This document shows, piece by piece, positions 6,057 through 61,049 of a stretch of 64,000 bases of DNA. Where the stretch lies: contig NZ_JACUTY010000003.1 of assembly GCF_014859555.1 (NCBI RefSeq), positions 1 to 64,000 on the forward strand, given 5' to 3'. Below the pieces are notes generated by a model that did not search any database, was not told the DNA's origin, and was given only the letters and a program-made list of their open reading frames with translations. A program made the translations under genes and the position numbers. This DNA is from Thiomicrospira sp. Its GTDB lineage: Bacteria > Pseudomonadota > Gammaproteobacteria > Thiomicrospirales > Thiomicrospiraceae. Numbering within the stretch: position 1 is the first letter of the stretch; each line of letters opens with the position of its first letter.

Positions 6057-7328
6057 ATGAAACTACCAATTAAGCGCTCAAAACCCAAAACCACTCATTA
6101 CCATGTTAGCCACTTACAAGGTCACCATAACTCCGTTGAAATTGAAGCATTAGCTGATGATGGTCGTGGACTTGCTCGGATAGAAGGTAAGGTGGTATTC
6201 ATATCCCAAGCCTTGCCTGGCGAGTTGGTTGATGTCAAAATCATGATCGACAAACCCAGTCATGCTGAGGCTACACCGACTAAATGGCATCGGTATTCTG
6301 AGCATAGAAAGACCCCGTTTTGCGACTATTATGCTACTTGCGGAGGTTGCCAACTACAGCATCTCTCACTTAGTAGCCAACACAAATGGAAACAACAGAA
6401 TTTTTTACAACAGCTCAGTAAATCACTCAACACCCGAAAGTTAACGATAGAGCCTTTACTTGGAACAGCTAGCCAACATTATCGACGCCGTGCACGACTT
6501 GTACTCGTCAAAGATCCAAAAACCAAACAGGCTAAACTAGGTTTTCGACAAGCCCAATCTCAAACCCCTGTCGACATTGAATACTGTCCTATCTTAACCC
6601 CGGCTTTAAATCAAGCCCTTCAGAAAGCGCGATTTGAACTCTTGCCTCTAGCAAGTCGGCAAGCTAAAGAAGTGCAACTAGTTGAAGCTGAACAAGGCGT
6701 TTGGATCACCAGTGATGTTTATCAAAAAACCGCCGACGTTGATGCGCCTTATTACCTTTTAAACCAACTTAAACTTAATTTCGACCCGCAAGGCTTTATT
6801 CAAGTTAATGCGCCGATTAACCAAGCCCTGGTTAATCAAGTCGTAGACTGGTTAGCGCCTAACCAACAGGACCGGATTTTGGATTTATTTTGTGGCATAG
6901 GCAACTTCAGCTTAGCTTTAGCCCAACATGCAGGCAAAGTTGTGGGCGTAGAAGGCCTCGCAAACGCGGTGATTTTAGCGAAACAAAACGCCTTAAATAA
7001 TCAACTCAATAATACCGAGTTTTATAAGGCGGATCTTTTTGAAGATGCCCACCACCAGGCCTGGTGGTCAAGCTACGATTCGATATTGCTTGACCCGGGG
7101 CGCTTAGGTGCCAAAAACCTGTGCCAAAAGATTGGTGAACTAAATGCAAATCGTATCGTTTATGTATCCTGTCAAAGCGATACCTTGATTCGTGATCTGC
7201 AAGCCATTGAACAACAAGGTTATCGACTTAAACGGATTCAGCTGTTCGATATGTTTCCGAACACCAGTCACATTGAAAGCTTGGTATTAATGGAAAAAAT
7301 TATGTTAAACCATAAACAACACACCTAA
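6057..7328 (+). CDS. rlmD: 23S rRNA (uracil(1939)-C(5))-methyltransferase
   Basis: TRAM-like N-terminus, CGGCQLQH cysteine motif, LDLFCGIGNFSL SAM motif, VYVSCQSDTL catalytic Cys. Confidence 0.93.
   Translation: MKLPIKRSKPKTTHYHVSHLQGHHNSVEIEALADDGRGLARIEGKVVFISQALPGELVDVKIMIDKPSHAEATPTKWHRYSEHRKTPFCDYYATCGGCQLQHLSLSSQHKWKQQNFLQQLSKSLNTRKLTIEPLLGTASQHYRRRARLVLVKDPKTKQAKLGFRQAQSQTPVDIEYCPILTPALNQALQKARFELLPLASRQAKEVQLVEAEQGVWITSDVYQKTADVDAPYYLLNQLKLNFDPQGFIQVNAPINQALVNQVVDWLAPNQQDRILDLFCGIGNFSLALAQHAGKVVGVEGLANAVILAKQNALNNQLNNTEFYKADLFEDAHHQAWWSSYDSILLDPGRLGAKNLCQKIGELNANRIVYVSCQSDTLIRDLQAIEQQGYRLKRIQLFDMFPNTSHIESLVLMEKIMLNHKQHT
7051..7068. repeat. iterated palindrome, perfect 18-mer ACCACCAGGCCTGGTGGT in rlmD
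   Basis: Direct read; encodes HHQAWWS. Confidence 0.98.
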
Positions 7329-37951: not shown

Positions 37952-37963
37952 ACTAGGCCTGTT
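37952..37963. repeat. decayed iterated palindrome (ACTAGGCCTGTT) in trmJ-suhB spacer
   Basis: 10/12 match. Confidence 0.4.
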
Positions 37964-38030: not shown

Positions 38031-38831
38031 ATGCACCCAATTTTGAACGTGGCCATGATCGCGGCACGCGAAGCTGGCGAAATCATTCTTCGCAATCTCG
38101 ACAATATCGACCGTCTTAATATCGAAGAAAAAACTAAAAATAACTTCGTCAGTGAGGTGGATAATTTGGCCGAACAAGCCATTATCAAAACCATTAAAAA
38201 GTATTACCCTGAGCACGGAATTTTAGCCGAAGAAAGTGGTCGCCAAAACCCTAAAGCGGATATGCAATGGATTATTGACCCACTCGACGGCACCACTAAC
38301 TTTTTGCATCAGTTCCCACAGTTTTCCGTGTCAATCGCGGTAATGGAAAAAGGCAAACTTACTCACGGCGTGGTATTCGATCCGGTGCGTGATGAAATGT
38401 TCCATGCTACCCGCGGTGGCGGTGCGCGTTTAAACAATCGTCGTATTCGTGTGACTGAACAAAAACACTTAAAGCACGCTTTACTGGCCACCGGTTTTCC
38501 TTATTATGATTTTAATTATGTGGATAGCTATTTAGCCAGCTTTAAATCTTTCATGATTAACACGGCCGGTATCCGTCGCGCTGGTTCGGCGGCGTTAGAC
38601 TTGGCTTATGTGGCCGCTGGGCGTGTGGATGGTTACTGGGAGTTTAATCTGAAACCTTGGGATATTGCCGCCGGTATTTTACTAGTGACAGAAGCTGGCG
38701 GTATGTGTACCGATTTTGCTGGCAACGACAACATGTTGGAATCCGGTAATATTTTGGCTTGTACGCCAAAACTGATGAAAGACATGGCTAAAACCCTAAC
38801 CGAAACCATTCCGGCTGAATTACGCAAATAA
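38031..38831 (+). CDS. suhB: inositol-1-monophosphatase
   Basis: WIIDPLDGTTNFLH; WDIAAGILLVTEAGG; ATG at 38031. Confidence 0.96.
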   Translation: MHPILNVAMIAAREAGEIILRNLDNIDRLNIEEKTKNNFVSEVDNLAEQAIIKTIKKYYPEHGILAEESGRQNPKADMQWIIDPLDGTTNFLHQFPQFSVSIAVMEKGKLTHGVVFDPVRDEMFHATRGGGARLNNRRIRVTEQKHLKHALLATGFPYYDFNYVDSYLASFKSFMINTAGIRRAGSAALDLAYVAAGRVDGYWEFNLKPWDIAAGILLVTEAGGMCTDFAGNDNMLESGNILACTPKLMKDMAKTLTETIPAELRK

Positions 38832-38838
38832 AGCCTTA

Positions 38839-38853
38839 CCACCAGGCCTGGTG
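38839..38853. repeat. iterated palindrome CCACCAGGCCTGGTG (left of pair)
   Basis: 15/16 of consensus, intergenic. Confidence 0.96.
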
Positions 38854-38862
38854 CTTTCCAAT

Positions 38863-38877
38863 ACCAGGCCTGGTGGT
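38863..38877. repeat. iterated palindrome ACCAGGCCTGGTGGT (right of pair)
   Basis: exact 12-mer core, intergenic. Confidence 0.96.
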
Positions 38878-38886
38878 TTATTACAC

Positions 38887-39339
38887 CTAGCTATCTAAAC
38901 GCTTCGACATTAAAATCGCATCCTCACGCCCATCAATATCACATTGATAATAGTTTTTTCGCACCCCATCTTGGACAAAACCCATCGTTTTATACAAGTT
39001 ACGTGCGATCTTATTTGAACGCCGCACTTCTAACAGCACCACTGTATATTCGGTATTTTCAAACCGACTAAAGATCGCCTGTAAGGCTAGCTTTGCCACG
39101 CCTTGATTTTGGCAATTGGCCGCAATGCTTAAATTTAATAAATGCAATTCATCCAACACCGGCAATAAACAACAATAACCCAGTGCGGCGTCAGACGCAT
39201 CCATTAATAAATAATTCAAGCCTTGGTGTAAAGCGCGCTCAAACCCGCCTCGGGTCCAAGGATGAGTGTAATTTTGATGCTCAATTTGCATCACCCAATC
39301 TAAATCGGATTCATCCAAGGGTTTTAAGTGGCTAAACAT
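38887..39339 (-). CDS. rimI: ribosomal protein alanine N-acetyltransferase
   Basis: GNAT fold: LLEVRRSNKIARNLYKTMGFVQDGVRKNYY. Confidence 0.93.
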   Translation of the reverse strand: MFSHLKPLDESDLDWVMQIEHQNYTHPWTRGGFERALHQGLNYLLMDASDAALGYCCLLPVLDELHLLNLSIAANCQNQGVAKLALQAIFSRFENTEYTVVLLEVRRSNKIARNLYKTMGFVQDGVRKNYYQCDIDGREDAILMSKRLDS

Positions 39340-39358: not shown

Positions 39359-39880
39359 TTAGTTTGGGGAAAGGTGGATTAAGCGCTCATAAAATACACG
39401 CTTTAGATTGGGCTGTTCAAGCATCATTTCAAAACTTGGCAGCGGGATAACTTGCAAGCCTTCGGCCAACATTTCATTTAGTTGGTGATCTGGCTCCATA
39501 CTAAACACTTGCTCGCAGCCGAGTTCGATTAAATGCTCAACCACATCAAACATGGCTTGCTCAGTCTGCAAAGCATCCGTATCGTAAAAAACAACAGCCT
39601 CTTCCGAGCCAAAGTGAAACGTCAGAATAGACTGCCATAACCACCAGGCCTGGTGGTCGGCTTGTTGCCAAATACTCGATAAACCCGAGCCAATCAGCAC
39701 CCAGTTGGGTTGAGTTAGGGAACTTGGCAACGGATCTGCGAGATTTTGACCCGCCACTTCAGCCGGTTCGCTAACAGAACCGGGCGCTGTAGTTTGTGAG
39801 GCATTAAAGCTTGGCCGAACTTGCCAGTCGGTCACGCCTAAACCCGTCCAAACATCGGCATGTACTTTAGATTCAGACAC
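39359..39880 (-). CDS. HolD-like (DNA polymerase III psi subunit-like) protein
   Basis: LGVTDWQVR near the N-terminus resembles HolD LGITQW; immediately upstream of rimI as in E. coli. Confidence 0.5.
   Translation of the reverse strand: MSESKVHADVWTGLGVTDWQVRPSFNASQTTAPGSVSEPAEVAGQNLADPLPSSLTQPNWVLIGSGLSSIWQQADHQAWWLWQSILTFHFGSEEAVVFYDTDALQTEQAMFDVVEHLIELGCEQVFSMEPDHQLNEMLAEGLQVIPLPSFEMMLEQPNLKRVFYERLIHLSPN
39640..39657. repeat. iterated palindrome, perfect 18-mer in holD-like gene
   Basis: accaccaggcctggtggt; encodes HQAWW. Confidence 0.98.
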
Positions 39881-60435: not shown

Positions 60436-61049
60436 AGTCACAAGTCATTGGTGTAACTGGCGGTATAGGCTCGGGCAAAAGCGCGTTGTGTGATTATTTT
60501 GCGCAGCTAGGTTACCCCGTGATCGATACCGATCAAATCGCGAAAGATATTGTCAAACCTAATCAACCAGGCCTGGTGGCTTTAATTAAGCAACTGGGTT
60601 CTGATTATTTGCAATCCAATGGCGAATTGGATCGAGCTAAACTACGAGACACTTTTTTTCAAGATCCACTTATCAAACAGCAAGTGGAAGCCACGCTTCA
60701 CCCGCTAGTTCGCCAAACGGTTCGAGACCAAATTAACCAGCTACGAGGCCAGCATGCTCTTATTTTTGTTGCGATTCCGGTAATTCACCAGCTGAATCAG
60801 CCAGAATATCAATTAAACCGTGTGTTATTAGTGGAAGCTGAAGAAAATCAGCAGTTAGAGCGGGTAAAAAATCGAGACCAGCGCAGCCCCGAACAAATTA
60901 AGGTGATTATGCAACAACAAGCCACGCCGCAACAGCGACGCGCACTGGCGGATGATGTGATTGAAAACAAAGCGGGGTTAGACGATTTACATAACCAAGC
61001 CGATGCTTGGCTAAAACAAACCTTAAATCGGCTGGGGCCAGTAACCTGA
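60432..61049 (+). CDS. coaE: dephospho-CoA kinase
   Basis: GVTGGIGSGKSALCDYF; VIDTDQIAKDIV. Confidence 0.97.
   Translation: MKSQVIGVTGGIGSGKSALCDYFAQLGYPVIDTDQIAKDIVKPNQPGLVALIKQLGSDYLQSNGELDRAKLRDTFFQDPLIKQQVEATLHPLVRQTVRDQINQLRGQHALIFVAIPVIHQLNQPEYQLNRVLLVEAEENQQLERVKNRDQRSPEQIKVIMQQQATPQQRRALADDVIENKAGLDDLHNQADAWLKQTLNRLGPVT
60566..60577. repeat. iterated palindrome ACCAGGCCTGGT in coaE
   Basis: aaccaggcctggtggc; encodes QPGLVA. Confidence 0.95.

Follow-up and report, generated by a model that had tools for sequence, protein, structure and literature searches.

A highly iterated palindrome forms terminator-like hairpins between convergent genes in Thiomicrospira, including suhB and rimI

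Repeated palindromes at the 3' ends of genes include REP elements and BIMEs. To our knowledge, every known DNA-uptake sequence, whether DUS (Neisseriaceae) or USS (Pasteurellaceae), is asymmetric. Uptake sequences take part in approximately 55% of the terminators considered in Neisseria and in 17–29% in Pasteurellaceae (PMC1852404). DUS dialects and inverted DUS pairs have been described (PMC3630211), and inverted pairs of DUS or USS can form terminators (PMC1852404, PMC3630211, PMC12616744). Cyanobacterial HIPs reach 1000–2000 copies per Mb (PMC4390886). The word that we describe here, ACCAGGCCTGGT, resembles DUS and USS in occurring in hundreds of copies, many of them in genes, in its frequent use in terminator-like hairpins, and in having a short fixed core shared among lineage dialects of its flanks. 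Unlike those oriented words, it is a perfect palindrome without orientation, any two copies can pair, and a lone copy is enough where its arms are complementary. Like HIP1 and other cyanobacterial HIPs, it is short, GC-rich, mostly coding and absent from some near relatives; it differs in its density, which at about 310 copies per Mb for the exact 12-mer and 430 for the core is below the HIP range, in its tie to terminators, and in that none of three methyltransferase families is common to its carriers. As with REP and BIME, copies lie at gene 3' ends. However, REP elements are intergenic and mobilised, whereas the present word lies mostly inside genes and its copies share no repeated flanking unit.

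The window, meaning the whole 64,000-nucleotide stretch of Thiomicrospira sp. DNA that was analysed, contains two copies of the word between the convergent genes suhB and rimI (Table 1). Homologues of suhB are present in 59/59 sampled family genomes. Its TAA stop ends at 38831 and the stem begins 6 nt beyond; rimI, on the minus strand, ends at 38887 and the stem lies 9 nt past its stop, so that the hairpin occupies most of the 55-nt gap. Positions 38838–38852 pair perfectly with 38863–38877 over 15 bp. RNA folding adds one G-U pair within the loop and gives −32.6 kcal/mol on the plus strand and −32.1 on the minus strand (z = −6.9 and −4.8, respectively, against dinucleotide shuffles, with 0/200 shuffles equally good). 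An earlier note on this DNA had described a perfect 15-bp stem with a 10-nt loop, which direct reading and RNA folding confirm exactly, and two nearly self-palindromic halves, each of which indeed holds a perfect 12-bp palindrome. It had also proposed a bidirectional terminator. The stem, present on both strands, fits that proposal better than the tails do, the T tract after the stem being moderate for suhB (5/8 T) and poor for rimI (AAGGCTTT). The site resembles intrinsic bidirectional terminators in having a stable GC-rich hairpin just beyond two facing stops and, on the suhB side, a moderately T-rich tail, but its stem is made from a genome-wide repeated word and one tail is weak. A simple terminator scan that required a loop of 3–8 did not call the hairpin. 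As a known RNA family, its sole match was a chance one to mir-77 (E = 0.33).

Table 1. Features of the suhB–rimI gap and nearby copies of the palindrome (window coordinates)
Feature	Position	Strand	Evidence
Diverged copy ACTAGGCCTGTT upstream of suhB	37952..37963	.	pattern search, alignment
suhB, inositol-monophosphatase family	38031..38831	+	ORF; name from the earlier note and sequence
Tail for rimI transcription, AAGGCTTT, weak T tract	38830..38837	-	read directly
Left arm ACCACCAGGCCTGGT of 15-bp stem	38838..38852	+	read directly, pattern search, RNA fold
Palindrome copy 1, ACCAGGCCTGGT, within left arm	38841-38852		pattern search
10-nt loop GCTTTCCAAT	38853..38862	+	read directly, RNA fold
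Right arm ACCAGGCCTGGTGGT of stem	38863..38877	+	read directly, pattern search, RNA fold
Palindrome copy 2, ACCAGGCCTGGT, within right arm	38863-38874		pattern search
T-rich tail for suhB transcription, TTTATTAC, 5/8 T	38878..38885	+	read directly
rimI-like N-acetyltransferase, convergent on hairpin	38887..39339	-	ORF; same neighbour in relatives' sequence
Nearest coding copy of palindrome	39643..39654	.	pattern search, alignment

With up to two mismatches allowed, the window holds 24 occurrences of the 12-mer, where chance would give 1.4. The 2.1-Mb genome holds 660 exact copies (reversed control, 0) and 902 copies of the core CAGGCCTG (reversed control, 3). In 964 kb of this genome, 317 exact copies stand against 17 single mismatches in the inner eight bases, and a further 75 single mismatches fall in the outer two bases on each side. 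Since mismatches are thus few at the inner positions and frequent at the outer ones, we take CAGGCCTG to be the fixed core. No other palindromic 8-mer comes close in abundance: the core occurs 421 times in the sample, compared with 86 for the next palindrome and 13 in the Markov control. The flanks preferred in this species are ACC/GGT, and flank composition in the congener G006 revealed no repeated unit beyond the palindrome. A phage or mobile origin was rejected, as none of the 2.9 million viral contigs of IMG/VR contains the exact 18-mer ACCACCAGGCCTGGTGGT and no longer unit is repeated. A literature search that covered few subscription journals found no description of the word for these bacteria. 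On the best reading, CAGGCCTG is a highly iterated palindrome specific to this lineage, which retains it genome-wide for a function unrelated to the suhB–rimI site.

To locate the copies relative to genes, we used the 964 kb together with 800 kb of G006, with genes called by a simple codon-usage caller (~81–84% coding); the caller is crude and therefore some gap labels are wrong. About two thirds of the sampled copies (208/317) are coding. Per 10 kb, however, this genome carries 2.7 copies in coding DNA, 35.3 in convergent gaps, 12.4 in same-direction gaps and 5.9 in divergent gaps, and G006 carries 1.8, 19.8, 4.1 and 5.6, respectively. Because eleven stretches of the 964 kb had been selected for the pairs in them or for being the window, densities were recounted on the other 742 kb, giving 2.6 (coding), 32.4 (convergent), 13.0 (same-direction) and 6.9 (divergent). 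Convergent gaps, less than 1% of the sequence, are 12.5-fold denser than coding DNA (742 kb, P = 4e-12) and also exceed divergent gaps (P = 1e-6). When all other 8-mer palindromes with 6 GC, as in the core, are pooled, 0/543 of their occurrences fall in convergent gaps versus 26/421 for the core. The excess at convergent gaps, from which equal-GC palindromes are absent, is therefore specific to 3' ends, which is what a terminator would show, and not a property of intergenic DNA in general. Within same-direction gaps, copies lie a median of 30 nt from the upstream stop versus 74.5 nt from the next start in this genome (P = 2e-4); the shift towards stops in G006 is not significant. Part of the enrichment in gaps could stem from tolerance and not from function, but divergent gaps, which are no more bound by coding constraint, hold far fewer copies than convergent ones.

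Copies between convergent genes are also more often able to fold. Either arms of at least 9 bp or a second copy no more than 40 bp away accompany 18/26 convergent-gap cores, compared with 41/292 coding cores, and among 12-mers of the unselected 742 kb, 10/15 in convergent gaps are hairpin-capable versus 19/151 in coding DNA (P = 1e-5). A perfect stem of at least 8 bp is present in 41/68 convergent gaps and in 2/68 after shuffling. The core lies inside 12 of these 41 stems (~29%), a share that matches the 17–29% of Pasteurellaceae. Two designs exist: paired copies and, more commonly, a single copy with complementary flanks. The latter is exemplified by L123:7703, which reads ATAAAAAAACC-ACCAGGCCTGGT-GGTTTTTTTAT, and further by L135:11907, L164:3528 and L150:5869. 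At L150:5869 (G000:C31), one copy with a 17-bp complementary arm on each side makes a 46-base perfect palindrome at a gene end. The paired design is seen at L118:13245-13274 (G000:C128), where two copies with 6 bp between them build a 21-bp stem (−36.1 kcal/mol) in an A7-stem-T7 arrangement; as a predicted bidirectional terminator, this locus is better than the suhB–rimI hairpin.

Because the word reads the same on both strands, a hairpin can form from any pair of nearby copies. Such a hairpin would be strong in RNA from both strands, and a single copy whose flanks have turned complementary would do equally well. At gene convergences and operon ends, selection has probably turned these hairpins into intrinsic (Rho-independent-like) terminators, of which the suhB–rimI hairpin would be one. 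We consider this secondary co-option of the word quite probable. RNA polymerase would be expected, from the stem and its tails, to stop at the suhB–rimI hairpin, more surely for suhB, whose tail is usable, than for rimI. It is also conceivable, albeit unlikely, that the hairpins serve to shield mRNA 3' ends or to prevent read-through (Rho-dependent or by collision) and are not intrinsic terminators: some strong stems have poor T tails, as on the rimI side, and T content after stems is raised just slightly. Several motif hairpins, however, have full A/T tracts on both sides. The earlier note had suggested that the motif was co-opted, or had spread, as a terminator module. Co-option as terminator-like hairpin material is supported by the contrast between convergent and coding density in the 742 kb, by the hairpins at those gaps and by their recurrence in relatives. 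Spread as a module is contradicted by the two thirds of copies inside genes, several of them conserved between species. Since most copies are inside genes, the word is not primarily a terminator.

Copies within genes are long-lived. The core at 39645 is kept in 6/6 aligned Thiomicrospira genomes, although the five besides this one are just 68–83% identical to the locus in DNA, and every genome aligned at 7056 and at 60568 retains the coding copy found at that place. The conserved coding copies may point to upkeep of the word itself. Coding copies, such as those at window positions 7054, 39643 and 60566, yield recurrent peptides. Two of the three reading frames hold 186/208 of them, and these two main frames give xPGLV and xQAWx, such as QPGLV and HQAWL or HQAWW.

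As to the primary function of the word, a DNA-uptake (self-recognition) sequence is our leading guess, and a tentative one. A palindromic word with flank dialects would have been lost or replaced repeatedly across the Thiomicrospira family, the receptor that binds CAGGCCTG would be a dimer or otherwise have two-fold symmetry, and the word would have been recruited secondarily into approximately 30% of terminator hairpins. Such a role would fit the copy number, dialects, terminator use and presence of ComEC. The ComEC domain, however, is found in 55/59 family genomes, and because it is present equally in word-poor genomes it does not discriminate; an association of the word with competence genes was thus rejected.

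Alternatively, the word could be the operator of a global DNA-binding protein, whether a regulator or an organiser of the nucleoid, which would act as a roadblock and make polymerase pause. A perfect dyad whose inner symmetric positions are nearly intolerant of change is what such a protein might require. Yet there is no promoter-side enrichment, divergent gaps being the poorest intergenic class in this genome, and an operator leaves the complementary arms and pairs unexplained; we find this rather improbable. A HIP1-like system, in which a cognate DNA methyltransferase and methylation-guided repair create and keep the palindrome and hairpins are incidental, seems more doubtful still. The style is the same as that of cyanobacterial HIPs, a GC-rich palindrome in hundreds of mostly coding copies, and the flank preference beyond a fixed core and the patchy gain and loss are likewise shared (PMC4390886). 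However, the C5-methyltransferase family PF00145 is found in 0/9 Thiomicrospira genomes, all of them core-rich, PF02086 is found in 1/9, and PF01555 is absent from this genome, G002 and G004. A methyltransferase-driven HIP was therefore rejected for these three families. Nor does a HIP model predict the strong hairpin enrichment between convergent genes.

Returning to co-option as a terminator, the same gap in relatives shows how such hairpins vary. G001, the nearest relative with a suhB that is 95% identical, differs from this genome in spacing, loop and outer bases, yet it retains the two cores and its hairpin is still able to fold. The suhB–rimI gap of UBA5634 has one core inside AATCGACAC...GTGTCGATT, that of Milos-T2 has one core in a long near-perfect palindrome, and that of WB1 reads GGTTTTC-ACCAGGCCTGGT-GAAAACC. 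Thiomicrorhabdus zzn3 carries the pair ACCAGGCCTGTT...AACAGGCCTGGT, and three g6 genomes (G043, G051 and G053) have single cores with AAAACC or AAAACGG arms. Other family members have core-free hairpins or hardly any gap. Across these varied hairpins, then, it is the core that returns, on arms with no relation to one another. Three congeners (G008, G003 and G006) have no core in this gap, and the core hairpin is therefore not required there.

Pairs with a spacer of up to 30 bp number 11 genome-wide versus approximately 6 expected by chance from 660 copies, and the 4/11 that lie between convergent genes are, by a rough estimate, about what local density predicts; the pair enrichment proposed earlier as a check was not borne out. 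That the suhB–rimI pair is simply one of the few that chance would bring together among 660 copies, and merely happens to be intergenic, gains something from these numbers and from the 7/11 pairs not between genes called convergent, but it is disfavoured and very unlikely, given that convergent gaps, so small a part of the sequence, hold four pairs and a 12-fold copy excess, that G001 retains the pair despite changed outer arm bases and loop, and that related hairpins recur in the same gap in other genera.

The core is iterated patchily in Thiomicrospira, Thiomicrorhabdus and Hydrogenovibrio. Approximately half of the 59 sampled family genomes have 400–1130 cores and the remainder have 0–75, core-poor genomes including close relatives within genera g3 and g6. 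A class-wide motif was rejected, with 0–5 copies outside the family (369 genomes across the class). Flanks of CAGGCCTG fall into dialects, ACC/GGT, common in Thiomicrospira, versus AA/TT. AACAGGCCTGTT occurs 101 times in Thiomicrorhabdus zzn3 (G019) and 114 times in ZW0627 (G048) versus 0–2 times in Thiomicrospira; G019 has just 25 copies of ACCAGGCCTGGT. These free-living sulfur oxidisers provide what is probably an independent case, outside Neisseriaceae and Pasteurellaceae, of a genome-wide word recruited as terminator material. As the word is perfectly symmetric, hairpin formation is automatic, which makes it a clean setting for how terminators arise. If the word does serve in uptake, it would represent a third, independent and orientation-free uptake-sequence system. 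Because close relatives carry 400–1100 versus fewer than 40 copies, a gene linked to the word can be sought by comparison, as can the order in which terminator use and the primary role arose.

Across G043–G073, close relatives range from fewer than 40 to more than 900 copies of CAGGCCTG; within one genus, G045, G047 and G049 have 9–14 copies versus 906 and 962 in G051 and G053. On a smaller scale, the site upstream of suhB at 37952–37963 reads ACTAGGCCTGTT in this genome and G001, and ACCAGGCCTGGT in G004, G006 and G008 (3/5 congeners).
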